Virus record (IMG/VR): IMGVR_UViG_3300030333_004858
Location: 1 to 24,893 of that record
Strand: one strand, 5' to 3'
From: a virus
DNA length: 24,893 bases
The notes beneath the pieces were generated by a model. The model did no database searches and had not been told where the DNA came from. It saw nothing but the letters and a program-made list of their open reading frames with translations. A program made the translations under genes and the position numbers. How positions within the stretch are numbered: position 1 is the stretch's first letter; each line of letters begins with the position of its first letter. Positions 1,445 to 22,612 of the stretch are shown here, in pieces.

Positions 1445-4402
1445 TTACCTCAATGGATTATTAAAGGAGTTCAACACAGCAGCAGTAGTTTTCAATAATG
1501 CACCAAAAACACCACCTGGTGCTCCACTGGAACTATGTTGTCCAGGAGCAACACCCTTAGAATTAGTCAGTATCTGTGATATTGACTGATTTGCTGCACT
1601 AATATATTGTCTAGTATTGCGATTGGATTCATCAATTGCTTGAGTTGTAGCAGCAACTATACCTGTAGTTCTAGCATTAATCTCTTTTCTTGCTCTATTC
1701 CTTTCATCTGTTGCTCTTTGTATTTTCATCTCGTCACTCTTTCTATTCTTAGATTTATTCACATTTCTACTACCACCTTTCTTATTTCCACTACGAGCAC
1801 CTTCAGGACCAGCACCAAATACATTAGTTAACATACTGAATATACCGCCAGGTGCTCCACTTTCGCCACCCATCATATCTTTTGCACCACCAAGAAGACC
1901 ACCAAACAGTTGAGCACCTGTCTGCCCTGTCTTCTTAGTATAAGCAGAACCTGCTTTTCCCAATTCTTTCTTATCACGTTCAGACAATCCCTCTGAACCC
2001 ATCAACTTCTTAATTAAACTGCTTTGCTTATCACCCTTAAATCCAAATTTCATATCCTTATTACCAGCAGTATTAAAGGTATGATTTCCAAATTTAACTT
2101 CATTAACATCCTGTGATCGATCATAGAATGCACTGGAATAATTACGGAATCCTGTTGCAGACATAAGTTTTGCAATCTGCTGAGGATCATCAACCTGATT
2201 TGCAAGTAAACCCTTCAATCTAGAATGACTCTTTGCAATTTCAATTGCTCTAGCAGCAACTTCCAATTCAGATCCAGACCATTTCTTACTAATACGACCA
2301 TCAGTAATAGGACTATACTGACCAGGAGCATGAATAATATCCTTTAAAGATCCACTCTTAGCCATAAATGTTCCTGGATTACCAGTTTCATCAATAATCG
2401 CCTTTCTATTCAAAATACTTCTTGCTACTAATGCCATCCCTGCCATACCCTCTCCTTGAGCTTCAGCAAGAACTAATTTTTGGAACAACTGTTGACTACT
2501 ATTCTTAACTCCCTTCTTCTTCCAATCTTTACCAAGTTTGGATCCAAACTGAGTAGTTAGAGATTTATCACTGATACCCCTAAATGCATTTATTTTATTA
2601 TTTGTAGGATGATATAGTGCTGGTCCAAACCCACCACCACGCTCAAACTTTTTCAATCCAAGTTCAGAAAGATTAAATCCTAATTGCTTTGCTCTATAGA
2701 TTGATCTAGAAACAATACCAGGATCTCTTCTTGTCGCAAAATTATCTAGTGGAATAACAAAACCACTTCCATCTCCTTTTGTTGCAACATATTCAGTTCC
2801 GTGACCGATAAATGATGGTGGTAGTGCAGGATGCATAGACACAGGGAATCCGCTATTAGGTCCTGATATTATACCACTTCCCATTGGATTTACATCACCA
2901 CCAAGCATTCTATTTTTCTTACCACCAAACAATCCCCAACCAGTCTTAAGATCATCCCAAAAACTTTTCTTGGGTTTATTTTCTTCAAATTTACTCTTAA
3001 CACCCTCAAATGCATTTATACCTTTATTAGTAACATCCCTTATTTTTTCCATCTGACCAGGAACAAGAGCATTAAGTATTGATGTTATAGCACCAACCTT
3101 ATTATTACCCATTGCTTCCTTATCTTCTTGCATCTTGCGATTCATATCTGCAAGAGTATCATCCGCTTTCTTCTTGGCAGCAGTTATACCTAACATATCA
3201 GCAAGAATATTCTGATTCTTATCCTTACTATCATCAATAGACTTACTAATATTACCAGGAAGATCAGTAAGTTTTTGCCACCAATTCTTCTTATTTAATT
3301 GATCCTTTTTCTCTTGTTGTTTGTCTGGTAAATTATCTTGGTTTTTTAGGTCTATACCTTGTCCATCCTCATACTTACTAACACCAGTAGGTTTGTAATT
3401 ACCATCGTTAGTAAGATCATCACCATATCTTGATATCGACTTATCTCTATCAGTAGCTCTAACTCCAATTTCTTTTTCAGCATCAGCATCACCTTTTTTG
3501 GAGAAGAATCCCGCAGTTGATTCATCATAACCCTTATCACCAGGAAGTTTACCTTCCTTATCCATCTGAGCTTCAATAGTACCATCAGCAGCTTTTTGAG
3601 GGAATAAAAATTCCATCGCAGCCCATAATGCAGCACCACCAATAAATCCACCAAGCATCCATTTCCTAGCTCTACCACCAGTCATCATAAGACGACCTTT
3701 TCTTCTTAAAAGTTGTCTCTTGACAGTTCTACCCCTTCTATCAAAAAGTGCAAAGACTTTTCTAACATCACCAATAATCTTCCAAGGTTGAGTAAGATAC
3801 CTAATTGCTAAGAATGCTCCAGCAAACCTAAGCCAAATTTTAGTAAACGATTTTATTTTTGTCCAAGGGTCACTATCATCTCTAAGAAGATCATACAAGT
3901 CATCGATCATACCAACAACTTGACTACTAATAAACTTAGCAATAGTGCTAAAAATCTTATGCAGTTTTTCAAGAGTTGCCTTAATCTTCTTCTTATTTGC
4001 TGGATTAGCCAACCACTTCAGGATTGGCATTACTACCATTAATTTAAAGAAACTAGAAAGCATCTTCATAATACTTTCTAAGAATCCAGGTGTTTTTAAC
4101 TCACTAAATTTCTTAAAAAATGATTTTGTAGCTTTAGGTGTTCCTGATGATGTTGGTGCTGTATCAAGATCTTTTAATTTCTTTTTCCTATTCTCTAAAA
4201 GATCTACTTCAATAGCTTTAAGTTCTTTAACTGTTCCAACTATTCCATTAAGAACACCACCAATATTATTAAGTGCTTCTGTATTTAAATTAATAGTACG
4301 AACAAATTCCTTATCTTTTCCACGAGTAGGTCCGCCTGCCGATTCCTTCTTAGTATCGACAAACTTGTATAGGTTAATTTTTCTAGTCTTTTGTATTGCC
4401 AT
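1445..4402 (-). CDS. Large tail protein with SleB-type cell-wall hydrolase domain
   Basis: A 985-residue protein. Residues about 60-240 are basic and amphipathic, with a hydrophobic stretch near 115-130 (FFKLMVVMPILKWLANP), and match the N-terminal region of the preceding gene product. A predicted membrane-like segment follows near residue 250 (GGFIGGAALWAAMEFLF). Residues about 640-770 match the SleB / cell-wall hydrolase family: LVLAEAQGEGMAGMALVARS contains the AEA-x-GE core whose first Glu is the usual catalytic acid, followed by ILNRK and PGQYS. This suggests local peptidoglycan cleavage during DNA injection, a role T4 assigns to gp5 lysozyme. The C-terminus is Gly/Ser-rich with a basic coiled-coil-like stretch (about 890-940). 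The start ATG abuts the upstream stop (TAAATG). The hydrolase call is good; its virion location is inferred from context. Confidence 0.75.
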   Translation of the reverse strand: MAIQKTRKINLYKFVDTKKESAGGPTRGKDKEFVRTINLNTEALNNIGGVLNGIVGTVKELKAIEVDLLENRKKKLKDLDTAPTSSGTPKATKSFFKKFSELKTPGFLESIMKMLSSFFKLMVVMPILKWLANPANKKKIKATLEKLHKIFSTIAKFISSQVVGMIDDLYDLLRDDSDPWTKIKSFTKIWLRFAGAFLAIRYLTQPWKIIGDVRKVFALFDRRGRTVKRQLLRRKGRLMMTGGRARKWMLGGFIGGAALWAAMEFLFPQKAADGTIEAQMDKEGKLPGDKGYDESTAGFFSKKGDADAEKEIGVRATDRDKSISRYGDDLTNDGNYKPTGVSKYEDGQGIDLKNQDNLPDKQQEKKDQLNKKNWWQKLTDLPGNISKSIDDSKDKNQNILADMLGITAAKKKADDTLADMNRKMQEDKEAMGNNKVGAITSILNALVPGQMEKIRDVTNKGINAFEGVKSKFEENKPKKSFWDDLKTGWGLFGGKKNRMLGGDVNPMGSGIISGPNSGFPVSMHPALPPSFIGHGTEYVATKGDGSGFVIPLDNFATRRDPGIVSRSIYRAKQLGFNLSELGLKKFERGGGFGPALYHPTNNKINAFRGISDKSLTTQFGSKLGKDWKKKGVKNSSQQLFQKLVLAEAQGEGMAGMALVARSILNRKAIIDETGNPGTFMAKSGSLKDIIHAPGQYSPITDGRISKKWSGSELEVAARAIEIAKSHSRLKGLLANQVDDPQQIAKLMSATGFRNYSSAFYDRSQDVNEVKFGNHTFNTAGNKDMKFGFKGDKQSSLIKKLMGSEGLSERDKKELGKAGSAYTKKTGQTGAQLFGGLLGGAKDMMGGESGAPGGIFSMLTNVFGAGPEGARSGNKKGGSRNVNKSKNRKSDEMKIQRATDERNRARKEINARTTGIVAATTQAIDESNRNTRQYISAANQSISQILTNSKGVAPGQHSSSGAPGGVFGALLKTTAAVLNSFNNPLR

Positions 4403-7400
4403 TTACCAACCAGCACCTCCCATTCTATTTAACAAACCTTTGACACCACTCATTGATGACAATTGCTCACCAACACCAGAGGATGTATCTACTGGAACTG
4501 GAACTGCCTCAAGTTTTTCCATAATAATAGGAATAGCAACCATCTCGATAGCAGTCTGTAATGCATATTCAGAATCAAACTGACCATCTCTAAAAATTTC
4601 ATTAACATTATCAACAACACCAAGAACTCTCTTATCAACACCCAACTCTGGTGCTAATTCCCTAAGACCAGTTGCAATATCACCACTCTCAGACATACCC
4701 ATCATTGCTCTGTATACTCCACCCATACCAGATTTATCTGCCATTCCACTTATGAAAGAAGCAGGTGAGAAGTCACCAGTAATTAATGAACCCATTCCTG
4801 GAATACTTGCAATTCCAGGTATATTTTGTATAGCAGAACCAATACCAGGAATTGAGTTAAGAACTCCACCCAATCCCATTTTATCAACTGTTGCTCCAAA
4901 TGCTGAAAGTTGATCCCCAAACTTTGTTCCTTGAACTGCAGCACCTAAAGCACCACCATAATTACCTTGTATCAAAGCAGAAGATATTTTACCAATCTTA
5001 GTTTCCATAAAATTATCAAACATCTCCTGACCTTTATTATAAAGATTAGCAAATGGTTTTCCAAAATTATTCTGGAAGAAATTACCTATACCAGTCTCCC
5101 ATTTAGCAAATGTCTCAGGGAATATATTAGCACCAGTATTCCAAAGACTCATAACAGCAGCCATTGGATTACCTTGAGATAGAGCACTAAATGCTCTCAT
5201 TCCTGTTATAACTTTTTCAATCCATGCATATTGTGGAAATACAATAGGTAAAGCAACTGATAATATCTGACCTAACTCACTATTCAGGACATTACTAGCA
5301 ATTTTACCAATATCACCAATAATATTACCAGCAAAATCAACAACAGGTTTAACAACAGTATTATATACTGCTTCAAAAGGAGATTTAATAATATTCCAAA
5401 TCTTTTTGAATGGATTCCATGCTTGACGTAACTCACCAGGTTCTGAGTCAGAGTTTTTCTTACCAGTAAAGACTCCCAGAAAATCCCACCATGCTTTTCC
5501 ACTCTTCTTCTCTGTCTTCCCTTCTTCCTTAGAACCTTCAATTATCTTAGTGGCTTCTGCTAATTTATCTTTAGCATTTGAACCACCAAATTTACTAGCA
5601 ATAGCATTAGTTGCTTCAGTCAAACCAGGAATAAGTTTAAGTAAACCACCATCCTGTTCCCATTGCATTATTGCTTCACCAACTCCAGGTATAATACGAG
5701 CAAGTAAATAAGCATCAATAGTAGTTCCAGCAACCATCATAGGAACACCCCATGTTGCACCTACACCAGTTAATGAACTAATACCACCAGCAACATCTAA
5801 AGTACCAGCAATTGTTTCTAAGACACCAGCAATATTATCACCATATTTAAATGATTGACCAGCAAAATAATAGTTAACTAATCCACCTATAAGTGGTATT
5901 GCTGCTCCAGCTCTTTTACCCCACTTTGCTCCTTGACTACTAATAGCACCCCAAGTTATACCTCTCTTTTGAAGTGCCTTTGTTATCTTATTAATAATTG
6001 GAATTCTATTAATAGCACCTAAAATCTCTTGTCCTTTCTTCAGAAATGTATCAACATATGGTTCAACAAATTCCCATATTGGTTTTAATATTCTATTCTG
6101 TACTGCTTTCTCAATATTACCAGGAAGATTCCAAGCTCTCTTTGCCCATTTACTAGTCCATCTTCCTATACCACTTGCTGCATTACCTGCCCAATTAACA
6201 CCTTTCTTAAAATTCTTTCTAGCAGCAGGACCAATATTAGCAAGAAACTCTGATGTTGCGTCCAGTGCTTTCTTTGTCCTTCCTCCGTCAATCTCTCGAA
6301 TCTTACCACCAATCTTTCCAGGTAATGACTTTAAACCTTCTAATACATCACCACCTTTTTTACCAAGTTCTAATCCTTTAAACCAATTATTTACATTATT
6401 ACCAACCTTAGTAGCATTTTTCCTAACAAGACCTGTAACAGTAGAAAATTTTTCCCCAAGTCTAAGATCCTTAAAAGGATTCTTTATTTTCCAACCTTGA
6501 CCTTTTAACTTACCATCCTTAAACCCACCTTTACTGAATAACCCCTTAAGTCCTATCTGACCTCTACGAATTAATCTTAATCTATCACCAAAATTTGAAG
6601 TACCTTCAATAAATCTTGCATAGGACTTATTCATCCTAGATAGAGATTTCTTAGCCTTCTGGAACCAAGGTAAACGTCGAGGTTTTTGCGGTTTTTTAGG
6701 TAGTTTTCGTAATCTTCCTCGCTGATTAAATCTGGGAACCTCCCAGTTCATTATAAAGTCTAAAATACCTATAATATCGCCAATTAAGGCAAATGGATTA
6801 AGAAGCCACCTTAAACTAATAAAACCAAAAAGAACCTTACCTAGATTCTTTACTTGGTTTATAAATCCTACCTTATTCCCATGTTCATCCTCACCACCCA
6901 ACAACTCAGTCATTGGTGTAAGGATATTATCCATTATCAACCACTGACCAAAGCTGTATAACTTCTTAACAACAAATACAGTCTTTCTTACAAATTCTTG
7001 TAATTTTATCCTATTATTTGGATCTCCCACCCATTTCAGTAGATCCTTTATAACATAAAATTTAAGAATACTTACTATAAATTGAGCAATAGGACCCCAA
7101 ACATTGCCCATCCACCCAAAGATATCACCAAATTTCTTCTTTTCTTTTGTATTAGGTTTTCTTTTAGTAGTTAACTTTCTTCCAATTATTTTATTCTGTT
7201 CTGTCTTATCCTCAGAATCTTGGTCTCTCTGTCGTTGTGCCTTCCTCCTTAATAACTTTTTCTCCATCACATCGAGCTTAACGTTAGCCCATGCAATATC
7301 TCGCATGTCACCAACTACTAGACCAAGACCTGTTACTACTGATCCTAATCTATTCTTAGCTAATACACCTTTTCTTGCAGCACGAATCGCTGGAGAGGAT

Positions 7401-7450
7401 TTACCTGAACTTCCAGGGTTAATAAACTTGTAGGGAGAAAGTTTAGGCAT
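4403..7450 (-). CDS. Very large tail protein, candidate tape measure
   Basis: A 1015-residue protein encoded directly after the tail-assembly chaperone pair, the usual place for a tape measure protein. It begins MPKLSPYKFINP, then a basic, charged helix (about residues 55-110), a hydrophobic stretch with LLKWVGDPNN, and RWLLNPFALIGDIIGILDF near 215. This whole N-terminal part resembles the next gene product. A second hydrophobic region (about 500-590) contains GAAIPLIGGLVNYYFAG and Gly/Ala-rich helices, and the C-terminal third has short Gly-Ile-Pro-rich repeats (GIGSAIQNIPGIASIPGMG). Hydrophobic segments plus long helices are typical of tape measures, which also help cross the inner membrane. 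T4's tape measure gp29 is much shorter (590 aa). The start (TAATG overlap) has AAGG seven bases upstream. The function is inferred from position, size and composition, and homology to gp29 is not evident. Confidence 0.6.
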   Translation of the reverse strand: MPKLSPYKFINPGSSGKSSPAIRAARKGVLAKNRLGSVVTGLGLVVGDMRDIAWANVKLDVMEKKLLRRKAQRQRDQDSEDKTEQNKIIGRKLTTKRKPNTKEKKKFGDIFGWMGNVWGPIAQFIVSILKFYVIKDLLKWVGDPNNRIKLQEFVRKTVFVVKKLYSFGQWLIMDNILTPMTELLGGEDEHGNKVGFINQVKNLGKVLFGFISLRWLLNPFALIGDIIGILDFIMNWEVPRFNQRGRLRKLPKKPQKPRRLPWFQKAKKSLSRMNKSYARFIEGTSNFGDRLRLIRRGQIGLKGLFSKGGFKDGKLKGQGWKIKNPFKDLRLGEKFSTVTGLVRKNATKVGNNVNNWFKGLELGKKGGDVLEGLKSLPGKIGGKIREIDGGRTKKALDATSEFLANIGPAARKNFKKGVNWAGNAASGIGRWTSKWAKRAWNLPGNIEKAVQNRILKPIWEFVEPYVDTFLKKGQEILGAINRIPIINKITKALQKRGITWGAISSQGAKWGKRAGAAIPLIGGLVNYYFAGQSFKYGDNIAGVLETIAGTLDVAGGISSLTGVGATWGVPMMVAGTTIDAYLLARIIPGVGEAIMQWEQDGGLLKLIPGLTEATNAIASKFGGSNAKDKLAEATKIIEGSKEEGKTEKKSGKAWWDFLGVFTGKKNSDSEPGELRQAWNPFKKIWNIIKSPFEAVYNTVVKPVVDFAGNIIGDIGKIASNVLNSELGQILSVALPIVFPQYAWIEKVITGMRAFSALSQGNPMAAVMSLWNTGANIFPETFAKWETGIGNFFQNNFGKPFANLYNKGQEMFDNFMETKIGKISSALIQGNYGGALGAAVQGTKFGDQLSAFGATVDKMGLGGVLNSIPGIGSAIQNIPGIASIPGMGSLITGDFSPASFISGMADKSGMGGVYRAMMGMSESGDIATGLRELAPELGVDKRVLGVVDNVNEIFRDGQFDSEYALQTAIEMVAIPIIMEKLEAVPVPVDTSSGVGEQLSSMSGVKGLLNRMGGAGW

Positions 7451-7632
7451 TACATACCTTGTCGTGCTTCTGTTGCTTGTTGAGCTTTAAGTCTTCGCTC
7501 TTCTTCCTTTAAAAATGCCACCAAAAGATTCATATAAATCTCTTTCTCAAAAGGTATTAAATTATCAATAAATTCAATTGGCCACTTGTGGTGGTGCATT
7601 AATGAGAAATTGACTTCATAATAACTCTGCAA
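7450..7632 (-). CDS. T-like tail assembly chaperone frame (gp51 position), probably translated by frameshifting from gp26
   Basis: An open frame of 60 codons whose first possible initiator is TTG at 7632; the first ATG is only at 7599. Neither has a Shine-Dalgarno sequence. The frame stays open upstream to 7656, where it meets a slippery T TTT TTC in gp26. A -1 shift would therefore give a gp26 fusion of about 304 residues with no stop between. The encoded sequence (HHHKWPIEFIDNLIPFEKEI, then a Glu/Lys/Arg-rich helix) resembles the small C-terminal part of GT-type chaperones: an aromatic-rich start, a Leu/Pro/Phe-Glu turn and a charged helix. Cyanophage genes in this place are often labelled gp51 after T4, but similarity to the 249-aa T4 protein is not visible. 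The following gene overlaps as TAATG. Confidence 0.65.
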   Translation of the reverse strand: MQSYYEVNFSLMHHHKWPIEFIDNLIPFEKEIYMNLLVAFLKEEERRLKAQQATEARQGM

Positions 7633-7649
7633 ACTTTGATGGAGAAGAG

Positions 7650-8363
7650 CTATCCGAAAAAAGCTGCTAATCCTTCAAGTACAACATCACTCTCAACCTT
7701 TGTTTTTGGATTAGTTACCTTAACAGTATGAGATAACTTAGGCATAGATTCAAAGAAATCTTGAATCATCATAAATTGTTTACTACTTAATTGATCAAAA
7801 AATTCAACCAATTCCTCTTTAGGAGTATCAGCAGCTTCATATACCTCTTCAGCATCTGAAATTTGCTTAACACATCCTGCAGCCATTTGGAAAATTTGAT
7901 CAACACCAGGTGCTTCACCTCCAGTAAAATTCATTTCAACAAAACTATCCAAACTAGGATAACCCATAGTCAAAATGATCTCTGGACTTAATTTAATATC
8001 AGTCTTATGTCCCTTTGTTTTAACGACTTTAATCTCATTCAAAGGTATTTTTACCTCGACTGTAGTCTCGTCGTCATCAGGGCATGTAACTTGTACATCA
8101 ACAGTTTCACCTACCGACTTAGTACGAATTTGTAAGAATACAAACTCAATATCAAAAGTAGGTAATTCCTCAACATCATGTATATCTGTACATTCTGTGA
8201 TAATAGTTTTAATAGCAGTTACTATATCAGCCTGATTACCTGTTTCAGTTGCCAAAAGAAGTAATTTCTCTTCTTTAACAAGAAATGGTCTATAATTCAC
8301 AATCCTACCGTCAGATGGTAGTTTCAATTTGTACTTAGGTACATTTAACTTAGGTAATGCCAT
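7650..8363 (-). CDS. 26: gp26-like baseplate/tail assembly protein (G-like chaperone)
   Basis: A 237-residue protein with the pattern of the T4 gp26 family: an N-terminal KLKLPSDGRIVNYRPFLVKE segment, then a run predicting LLLLATETGNQADIVTAIKT, then a beta-rich middle containing EFVFLQIRTKSVGE and a four-residue acidic turn. T4 gp26 (208 aa) is counted among baseplate hub assembly proteins, and the family behaves like a tail-assembly chaperone in gene position. A late promoter (TATAAATA) lies just upstream. The end of the gene reads GLAAFFG followed by TAG and contains the slippery heptamer described separately, so two products are likely: the 237-aa form and an extended fusion with the downstream frame. 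Family membership is fairly secure; the chaperone role is inferred from the frameshift-like arrangement preceding a tape-measure candidate. Confidence 0.8.
   Translation of the reverse strand: MALPKLNVPKYKLKLPSDGRIVNYRPFLVKEEKLLLLATETGNQADIVTAIKTIITECTDIHDVEELPTFDIEFVFLQIRTKSVGETVDVQVTCPDDDETTVEVKIPLNEIKVVKTKGHKTDIKLSPEIILTMGYPSLDSFVEMNFTGGEAPGVDQIFQMAAGCVKQISDAEEVYEAADTPKEELVEFFDQLSSKQFMMIQDFFESMPKLSHTVKVTNPKTKVESDVVLEGLAAFFG
7656..7662 (-). promoter_or_regulatory. Candidate programmed -1 ribosomal frameshift site (T TTT TTC)
   Basis: Read on the minus strand in the gp26 frame, the codons are GCT TTT TTC GGA TAG, so T TTT TTC is a canonical X XXY YYZ heptamer in phase, two codons before the stop. 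A Shine-Dalgarno-like GAAGGA ends eight bases upstream (7671-7676), as at the dnaX frameshift site. Downstream, AGCTCT (7647-7652) can pair with AGAGTT (7624-7629), including one G-U pair, to form a stem. After a -1 slip, reading continues CGG ATA GCT CTT into the downstream frame without a stop. Confidence 0.6.
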
Positions 8364-19839: not shown

Positions 19840-20061
19840 GGTTTCCGAACGTGATTTAGTACGGTATTCCTCCAACTTCATTCTTGCTTCAACTAACATC
19901 CTTGCTGTATCTAATTTACCATCCAAATATTCACGAGTGTTATCAGGTAACAGCATCACATCCTCTGGTTCTAACAATGAATCGAACTCAAGATCAGTGT
20001 CACCAACAACCTCTCTCAACTCATCAGTTAAATTTTCTTTTCTTATTTTAGGTAGTTCCAT
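19825..20061 (-). CDS. Hypothetical protein after the NifU-like gene
   Basis: A 78-residue acidic, helical protein (LPKIRKENLTDELREVVGDT, FDSLLEPEDVMLLPDNTREY, LDTARMLVEARMKLEEYRTK). No motif is recognised. It is translationally coupled to the NifU-like gene by a TAATG overlap, and its 3' end contains the -35 element of the porin-like promoter. Its association with the NifU-like gene suggests a possible shared role, but nothing in the sequence defines it. Confidence 0.65.
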   Translation of the reverse strand: MELPKIRKENLTDELREVVGDTDLEFDSLLEPEDVMLLPDNTREYLDGKLDTARMLVEARMKLEEYRTKSRSETLTDM

Positions 20062-20348
20062 TATAGTACCTGAACAACACCAACAACATCAGGAATCTCT
20101 TCCTGTAATTTACGTTCTATACCTTGCTTCAAAGTCATTGTACTCATGGCACATGTCTCACACGCACCACCCAATTTTACCTTAACATATCCTGTTTCAT
20201 ATTCTATCTCTACTAACTGAAGGAATCCACCATCAGCTTCAATATAAGGTACGAGTTCTTCTAGAACCCTTACTACATTCTCTTCTGTTAGTTCCATATG
20301 TGTTGCCAAATAGTGTTGCCTCTTAAGGTATTCATTATAATGATCCAT
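20061..20348 (-). CDS. NifU-like C-terminal domain (Nfu-type) iron-sulfur protein
   Basis: A 95-residue protein from ATG 20348, chosen for its TAATG overlap with the upstream stop; an ATG three codons earlier and a Met further in are alternatives. The sequence EENVVRVLEELVPYIEADGG followed by FLQLVEIEYETGYVKVKLGG and ACETCAMSTMTLKQGIERKL is the standard NifU C-terminal domain, with the CxxC pair (C-E-T-C) that in dimers holds a 4Fe-4S cluster for transfer to target proteins. The domain is complete. It could support host or phage Fe-S proteins, such as those of photosynthesis, during infection. It is curious that it is coupled to a large structural gene. Confidence 0.88.
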   Translation of the reverse strand: MDHYNEYLKRQHYLATHMELTEENVVRVLEELVPYIEADGGFLQLVEIEYETGYVKVKLGGACETCAMSTMTLKQGIERKLQEEIPDVVGVVQVL

Positions 20349-22612
20349 TAATAACATACATTAATGGTACTTGCATACTGCTGGTTATAATCTGATGCAA
20401 AGAAGTTAACATCACATTCATTATAATTACCCTCAACACCATTGTGTGCAGTGTGTAATAATAATTCACCATTAGTAGGTAGGTTAGCAGATACACTTAT
20501 TGCATTATTAAGATCTGCTAGTGTCCAACTAGTATTAGTCTTGAATGAATCAACCCAATAATCAAATCCATCTGCCTCTGGTTTCCTACTTATGATAGTA
20601 GCATAAGAAGATACGATTTGATCGAACACTTGTTGATAAGTATAACCTGTTTTGATTGTCATAGTCAACCAAGTAGGAATATAACTTGTTACATAGTCTC
20701 CTAGTAATGTAAAACCATCATTAAACTTAAGGTATCCCTTAGTAGTTCTAGCATATCCAGCAGTAGTAATGCCACCAGTAGGTACGCATGTAGGTTCTAA
20801 CTCATAGTATTCATATCCTGATGCCATCCTAGTATGCCAAAGTAAATTCGGATGATCTTCTTCAATAATATCTGATGTTGGTGGGAATAAATCAAGTGAT
20901 GTAACTATAATATTACCTAAAGAATCAGTCATCTTAAATGCTACACCACCTGGATTAGTAGCCCAGTTATCATTACCTGTACCATTAATAACATTTACAC
21001 ATAACTCATGACCACCTGGTGCAACATTATTAATAGTATAGAAAGTACTATTAGTAAAAGCACCATTCCAAGGTGCTACATTCTGTCCTACAGATCCTAA
21101 ACTAGTACCATCCCATATAAATTCTGCCCAGTTGTCTGCCTGAACCTCAAGTATCATAGTACTTGGGTTAGTAACAGTAACAGTCCAACAACCATTATGA
21201 GTAGTACCTGATAAAGTCTCAGTGTTTGATGGGTATACTGCATACTGATCCATGAAGTCTGACCATGCAGGATGAGGACCAGATCTAACCCACTGAGGTG
21301 TAAATGGTACTGTACATACACCACCTCTACAAATTAAAAGATACCATCCACCTGGATTATCTGCCCATGCATATGGATCTCCAACCAATCTATTTCTAAC
21401 TTCAAACTTTATTAAATGAGTTCCAGGTAAGAGTGTCAATGTAAATGATTCTGTACCCATCCCATTAACATATTCAATCTCTTTATTGATAAGAAGATTA
21501 CCTAAAGGATCAATCCAAGTCATCTTACTATCATTATCAGACTCAACTTGGAATGTAACTGTAACTTCTGAAGCTATATCAATAGTAGTTTCAGCAAACT
21601 GCCAACTATTAAGATGAGGATCTACAACATCATCTGCAGGTTTAACAGAATAGATACCATAATCTTTTAAGAACTGTGTCCAAGGAACTGCTGGATTATT
21701 AGGAGGACCAATATGAATCCAGTTAGTTGTATTAGTACCTTCATTGGCATTGGTAGTACATTTTAATGACGATGCAATCTCAGCACCACCAGAATTATTA
21801 GTAATCCTCCATGCTATAGCAGCAGGGTTTATCCACCACCTATCTCTCCATCCAAAATCATTAGTTACATTAACGGTTACCTTTAGAATACCAGATGATA
21901 AAGTAGATGTTGCTGTATATGGTGTGGTGTAAGTACCTGTATTAAGATTACCACCAACAGCACTAATCAAAGCAGTAGAATTATCATTTATTATAACTTG
22001 TCCTTCCATATCACATCCAAATGTGAAACCATAAGTGTCTCCCACAGGAATAGAAATTAAATAAGTAACACTCTGAGGTTCTCCAGGTAAAGTACATACC
22101 TCTGGATTAACCCAAACAGAATAAGCATTTGCTTGATCATTCCACCACTCTGGACTATCAACATTGAAAGTAACTGGAGATGATTTTGCTCTCTTATATT
22201 TTAATGTATACGTACCGTCTTGCTTATAAAATCTTTTAGGTTGTATATTAATATCAGGATCAAAGGGTGAACAAGAATCCACATCCATTATTGGAGTGAA
22301 AAATGTATCAGTTAATCCCCATGTATTACCGTTGTCCCATATCTCATAATCATCTCTATCAGTACTATACTCATCCTCACAATCATAGAAAGTACCATCA
22401 GGTCTAACCTTACACTTCCTTCCAATCCTAATGGTTGGTGGAGGCATTCCAGGATATACTGGAGGATGTAATACAGGTGGATATATCCATCCATCAGGAT
22501 CAGGCCAATCACGTTTCTTTATAGTCGTGACGAATCTAGGGTCAGGATTATCTACTGGCCCTAGAGGATCGCAAACTGGTCCTGGATTTCCTTCAGGATA
22601 ATAATATGCCAT
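20348..22612 (-). CDS. Large repeat-containing structural/adhesin protein with DUF4214-like end
   Basis: A 754-residue protein. After a Pro/Asp/Tyr-rich N-terminus (about 1-130) come three related modules starting at about residues 155, 310 and 450. Each opens with a W-x-x-F/Q...Y pattern (WTQFLKDYGIYS; WSDFMDQYAVYPS), continues with beta strands and a polar turn, and closes with a W-x-x-NP motif (WWINPAAIAWRI; WADNPGGWYLLI; WATNPGGVAFKM). They resemble PA14/lectin-like ligand-binding modules. Residues about 655-710 (SSYATIISRKPEADGFDYWV and following) resemble DUF4214, often found in secreted or cell-surface proteins. It is probably a tail fibre or virion decoration that touches the host surface. 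A late-like promoter precedes it. Virion location is inferred. Confidence 0.7.
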   Translation of the reverse strand: MAYYYPEGNPGPVCDPLGPVDNPDPRFVTTIKKRDWPDPDGWIYPPVLHPPVYPGMPPPTIRIGRKCKVRPDGTFYDCEDEYSTDRDDYEIWDNGNTWGLTDTFFTPIMDVDSCSPFDPDINIQPKRFYKQDGTYTLKYKRAKSSPVTFNVDSPEWWNDQANAYSVWVNPEVCTLPGEPQSVTYLISIPVGDTYGFTFGCDMEGQVIINDNSTALISAVGGNLNTGTYTTPYTATSTLSSGILKVTVNVTNDFGWRDRWWINPAAIAWRITNNSGGAEIASSLKCTTNANEGTNTTNWIHIGPPNNPAVPWTQFLKDYGIYSVKPADDVVDPHLNSWQFAETTIDIASEVTVTFQVESDNDSKMTWIDPLGNLLINKEIEYVNGMGTESFTLTLLPGTHLIKFEVRNRLVGDPYAWADNPGGWYLLICRGGVCTVPFTPQWVRSGPHPAWSDFMDQYAVYPSNTETLSGTTHNGCWTVTVTNPSTMILEVQADNWAEFIWDGTSLGSVGQNVAPWNGAFTNSTFYTINNVAPGGHELCVNVINGTGNDNWATNPGGVAFKMTDSLGNIIVTSLDLFPPTSDIIEEDHPNLLWHTRMASGYEYYELEPTCVPTGGITTAGYARTTKGYLKFNDGFTLLGDYVTSYIPTWLTMTIKTGYTYQQVFDQIVSSYATIISRKPEADGFDYWVDSFKTNTSWTLADLNNAISVSANLPTNGELLLHTAHNGVEGNYNECDVNFFASDYNQQYASTINVCY

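Follow-up and report, generated by a model that had tools for sequence, protein, structure and literature searches.

The products of genes 26 and 51 of phage T4 are listed in a review as chaperones of hub assembly, of which gp51 is essential and absent from the phage particle (PMC3004832). In the T4-like cyanophage analyzed here, matches to both protein families lie back to back on the minus strand, in different reading frames, and this arrangement raises the question whether gp26 and gp51 are the products of two genes or of a single gene that is read in two ways. The window, that is, the whole stretch of DNA that we analyzed, comprises 24,893 nucleotides (positions 1 to 24,893 of the IMG/VR record IMGVR_UViG_3300030333_004858) and comes from a T4-like cyanophage, with psbA, phoH and T4-like baseplate genes present.

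Both parts of the locus match profiles of the T4 gp26/gp51 families. In profile searches, the gp26 frame matches PF12322 (T4_baseplate; E=2.6e-75) and phrog_150 (E=3.9e-88), and the product of the -1 frame matches, from its residue 3 on, phrog_634, labelled ‘baseplate hub assembly catalyst’ (gp51; E=1.8e-27). The 3' end of the gp26 frame reads GAA GGA TTA GCA GCT TTT TTC GGA TAG. The initial annotation of this DNA had placed a slippery heptamer, T TTT TTC, near the gp26 stop, and it is indeed found there, in phase (7662-7656, minus strand), with the single codon GGA between it and the TAG. As had also been claimed, the -1 frame is open at the heptamer; it remains open to position 7453, reading FFRIALLHQSLQSYYEVNFSLMHHHKW..., and the predicted gp26-gp51 fusion consists of 304 amino acids. 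The gp51 stop codon TAA (7452-7450) overlaps the ATG of the next gene (TAATG). The heptamer by itself is unremarkable, and its significance comes from conservation: TTTTTTC occurs 6 times in the window against 9.9 occurrences expected, so that the answer must come from a comparison of loci.

Table 1 Features of the gp26/gp51 locus and the adjoining gene, in window coordinates.
Feature	Position	Strand	Remarks
gp26 frame, short chaperone product (TAC-N-like, putative), 237 aa	7650..8363	-	PF12322, phrog_150; stop TAG 7652-7650
Proposed site of -1 frameshifting, heptamer T TTT TTC	7656..7662	-	In phase; conserved across homologous loci
-1 frame extension (TAC-C-like, ‘gp51’), RIALLHQSLQSYYEVNF...	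7453..7656	-	phrog_634; alignment with the T4 gp51 C-terminus
Shine-Dalgarno-like GAAGGA, possible stimulator	7671..7676	-	8 nt upstream of heptamer
Possible 9-bp downstream stem, 5' arm	7646..7654	-	-8.1 kcal/mol, not significant
Possible downstream stem, 3' arm	7620..7628	-	Pairs with 7646-7654
Downstream gene, 1015 aa, candidate tape measure protein	4403..7450	-	Start overlaps gp51 stop

We propose that gp26 and gp51 belong to a single gene with two readings. Most of the ribosomes would translate gp26 up to the TAG codon, yielding the short protein. In a minority, tRNA-Phe would slip back by one base on T TTT TTC, CGG would be the next codon, and the product would be the 304-aa fusion, which includes the small gp51 domain (...LAAFF-RIALLHQ...). 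Both forms would then serve as chaperones that coat the tape measure protein while the tail is being built, as gpG and gpGT do in lambda. A -1 programmed frameshift that gives rise to a short and a fused tail chaperone is very probably the best explanation of this locus; it is the reading offered in the initial annotation, and the comparative evidence in its favor is very strong. At the level of sequence, the case is made by the conserved in-phase heptamer, the open -1 frame, substitutions of the coding type ahead of the first ATG, and the homology with T4; that slippage occurs, the rate at which it would do so, and the relevance of the ratio of short to long product are what we infer.

For the comparison, we drew on one 80-locus IMG/VR set, two wider sets and named phages, in which the end of gp26 was readable at 256 loci; dereplication left 186 loci, and 183 junctions were aligned. 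Of the 256 loci, 255 retain an in-phase heptamer 0, 3 or 6 nucleotides ahead of the gp26 stop (TTTTTTC in 227, TTTTTTA in 26 and TTTTTTT in 2) as well as the open -1 frame, and so do all 97 lineages with less than 75% nucleotide identity; the six T are invariant over the 183 aligned junctions. The codon that precedes the TTT of the heptamer is AGT, TCT, GAT, AAT, GCT or CAT; the encoded residue varies (Ser, Asp, Asn, Ala or His), whereas T occupies the third position without exception. Each of the 186 dereplicated loci has between 57 and 72 open codons in the -1 frame, compared to a median of 8 codons for the +1 frame. A stop codon of the -1 frame (TAG, TGA or TAA) lies directly 5' of the heptamer in 36 of these 186 loci, and in these phages, therefore, no entry into the -1 frame is possible upstream of the heptamer. 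The same pattern is present in Sinorhizobium phage phiM7, Citrobacter phage Ci1, Aeromonas phage CC2, Stenotrophomonas phage Marzo, Acidovorax phage ACP17, Vibrio phages of the genus Schizotequatrovirus, and Pseudomonas phage pf16. No relatives were found in a bacterial genome collection or, with an Ackermannviridae-type query, in IMG/VR, and a wide alignment of proteins proved too divergent for scanning loci.

Two departures from the prevalent form of the site were observed. In a divergent group of 22 dereplicated loci (L225, L246, L256 and others), the heptamer at this position is T TTT TTA rather than T TTT TTC. The locus of Vibrio phage 1.255 (L093) is the only one among the 256 that lacks the T6 heptamer; it reads ACTTTTTCGC TAATG, with the stop overlapping an ATG, and might rely on translational coupling or single-tRNA slippage as an alternative.

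The conservation data also bear on the way in which gp51 is currently annotated. The databases present it as a CDS of its own, which implies a separate short protein, for which ribosomes would re-initiate at a start codon of its own once they have passed the gp26 stop. Separate initiation is possible in the P-SSM2-like group, where an ATG is found within a few codons 3' of the heptamer, soon after the stop, and in the KVP40-like phages and Marzo, where the stop overlaps or abuts an ATG (TAATG in some lineages). However, the annotated gp51 starts vary among relatives, some of the inspected records do not list gp51 at all, and the first ATG shifts from locus to locus, with codon indices anywhere between 4 and 35 among the dereplicated loci. 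In the window, the first ATG of the -1 frame is the 22nd codon counted from the heptamer (index 21); the initial annotation, which reported no ATG until residue 12, was right that the ATG comes late but started its count at a TTG codon (7632). Of the refuting conditions that the initial annotation named, those concerning the sequence of homologous junctions were checked, and the frameshift reading withstood them. The first ATG, which is at least 20 codons downstream of the heptamer in 74 loci, has no fixed position. In these 74 loci, the diversity of the stretch between the heptamer and the first ATG is 0.34/0.29/0.55 by -1 codon position, and the same measure for the gp26-frame coding region just upstream is 0.30/0.22/0.58, all these figures being uncorrected for shared ancestry. 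Because the -1 codon-position diversity resembles that of gp26, this stretch is probably translated in the -1 frame, ahead of any ATG from which an independent gp51 could start.

The invariance of the heptamer and the fusion of the same two domains in T4 (see below) also speak against an own start of gp51. Given the variable starts and the -1 coding periodicity upstream of the first ATG, we rejected re-initiation as the main explanation and consider it highly improbable. One argument against it was dropped, namely, the lack of a Shine-Dalgarno sequence. The initial annotation correctly stated that the downstream frame lacks a ribosome binding site, but little follows from this: genuine starts in these phages are likewise preceded by weak Shine-Dalgarno matches, so that weak matches do not exclude gp51 starts.

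The -1 frameshift reading predicts a protein in which a gp26 domain is joined to a gp51 domain, and T4 encodes such a protein outright. T4 gp51 consists of a gp26 domain and a phrog_634 domain; it aligns to the profile of the predicted fusion across the junction (columns 22-280, E=3.5e-10), with its C-terminus matched to the -1 extension, and T4 gp26 aligns to the short form, ending at FF (E=4.6e-17). Thus, the short form and the fusion are each aligned end to end with a T4 protein. The difference lies in the gene arrangement: in T4, gene 26 is separate from gene 51 and divergent to it, and the end of T4 gene 26 has no T6 run, whereas the phage studied here would use the frameshift form. A frameshift leading from gp26 to gp51 is impossible in T4 itself because the two genes are divergent. 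Given that T4 gp51 resembles the fusion, T4 gp26 resembles the short form, and their genes are separate, T4 uses two genes to make the same two proteins, and the system exists in both a recoded and a two-gene version. Gp51 of the T4 type is represented in 1339 phage records and is full length in nearly all of them.

Two elements flanking the heptamer had been put forward as possible aids to slippage. The hexamer GAAGGA is present eight bases upstream of the heptamer, as described, and most of the 186 loci contain GGAGG, GAGG or AAGG(A) 8-10 nucleotides 5' of the heptamer. This Shine-Dalgarno-like element is mostly explained by the conserved protein sequence and does not clearly go beyond coding constraint, with equal pairing attained in a median of 32% of synonymous shuffles. 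Since shuffled sequences often pair equally well, we dropped the element as proof of the frameshift. On the 3' side, a stem, initially described as consisting of six pairs, is possible and can be extended to 9 bp in the window, but at -8.1 kcal/mol it is not better than those of shuffled sequences (z=-0.91; 39 of 200 shuffles as good). Across the entire set, the 40 nucleotides of RNA downstream of the heptamer fold better than shuffles (mean z of -2.7). In P-SSM2-like phages, the stem comprises 11 bp and shows compensatory pairs, 86% of the cells being paired, compared to 27-49% when the alignment is slid; MED4-213-like phages have a 6-bp GC stem (GCCCTC/GAGGGC), and in many relatives of the window, the downstream stem is weak or absent. 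No consensus RNA fold was found over all 183 junctions because the stems sit in different registers, and Rfam gave no match within the window.

The same fusion could, in principle, be produced if RNA polymerase added or dropped a U at the T run, and six T of fixed length make a possible site of polymerase slippage. Bacterial RNA polymerase slippage, however, usually needs longer runs. Furthermore, the run keeps its codon phase and shows no growth, since 253 of 255 loci have six T and then C or A, and the Shine-Dalgarno-like element and, in some lineages, the 3' stem fit ribosomal rather than polymerase slippage. We accord transcriptional slippage hardly any probability and retain ribosomal frameshifting as the probable origin of the predicted fusion.

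The combination of an invariant heptamer with changing downstream stems suggests a broader evolutionary scenario, which we advance tentatively and regard as somewhat short of evenly probable. In marine and other T4-like phages, one ancestral frameshifted chaperone gene would have kept its slippery site, with the 3' stimulator swapped lineage by lineage, and in the T4 lineage recoding would have been replaced by gene duplication. If so, the locus would provide a natural series of the different ways in which phages hold two proteins at a required ratio.

The short and fused products are most likely tail assembly chaperones of the lambda G/GT type, by analogy, because of the two-product architecture and the T4 relatives: the predicted short and long forms share the N-terminal domain and come from two frames, and T4 has both, as gp26 and gp51. 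The likeness to lambda G/GT noted in the initial annotation is strengthened by the finding that T4 gp51 is built like the predicted fusion. The heptamer differs, being T TTT TTC in this phage, G GGA AAG in lambda and T TTT TTG in P2. Together with lambda gpG/gpGT, the conserved tail-gene frameshifts described by Xu, Hendrix and Duda (2004) represent the close known system; no sequence relation of gp26/gp51 to the lambda gpG families was detected, and no match of gp26 to solved chaperones was found at the sequence level. Among the PDB matches listed for the AlphaFold2 model of gp26 (pLDDT 87), the most probable is the HK97 chaperone 2OB9 (2ob9_B), a weak match (probability 0.30, E=2.5, target TM 0.39), so that the apparent structural similarity of the modelled gp26 to a solved HK97 chaperone is only suggestive.

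The frameshift site had been described as lying just before the tape measure gene. A large gene does adjoin, but its identity as the tape measure gene lacks profile support: the product matches phrog_790, labelled endolysin (E=1.9e-126), and no tape-measure profile was matched in the profile searches. The position and size of the gene are suitable for a tape measure protein, for which it is a candidate. This gene and the one following it in tandem (1445-4402, minus strand), each encoding a protein of about 1000 amino acids, are related to each other over roughly the first 230 residues of their products (BLASTP E=4e-6), and the second shows a weak match, below the cut-off, to the cell-wall hydrolase family PF07486. 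The PHROG label ‘endolysin’ may be misleading for these tandem genes, and one of the two may encode the tape measure protein.

The suspicion voiced in the initial annotation that such a frameshift was undescribed in T4-like phages proved wrong. According to two citing papers (PMC10885494, PMC12846349), Vladimirov, Gautam and Davidson (2022) identified the tail assembly chaperone genes of T4-like phages. As cited in the PRFect paper (PMC10885494), their work found that some T4-like phages have one short and one fused gene, with no frameshifting, and the paper on phage Adele (PMC12846349) credits them with poly-T slippery signals in T4-like TAC-N genes. By these accounts, the system is the same as the one analyzed here, frameshifting has already been reported for T4-like phages, and the present locus is a well-supported further example rather than a new mechanism. 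Our literature search, in which the 2022 study was represented by the papers that cite it, found no frameshift described in cyanophages by name. A similar arrangement is reported in Vandenendeviridae/Andersonviridae (Pseudomonas phage Adele; PMC12846349), with a poly-T slippery motif at the TAC-N end, a -1 frame that is open throughout, and a downstream part misannotated as a gene of its own; the differences are that these phages belong to another group and that the stated motif is GTTTTT.

None of the annotated public records that we inspected contains a joined gp26-gp51 CDS. The -1 extension of the window is matched in 559 phage records, so that the frameshift reading would correct the annotation of at least several hundred public genomes of cyanophages and related phages.

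Observations were also made on three other genes in the window, all on the minus strand. The product of 12170-12730 matches a PHROG labelled ‘DNA endonuclease V’ (E=2e-21) and, by eye, resembles a 2-oxoglutarate/Fe(II) oxygenase, so that the label looks doubtful. The label also looks doubtful for the 754-aa product of 20348-22612, which matches the ‘major head protein’ PHROG phrog_773 in four stretches and is encoded among host-takeover and metabolic genes. The 98-aa product of 20061-20357, assigned to a PHROG of unknown function, contains a CETC-type motif and, by eye, resembles the C-terminal domain of NifU.
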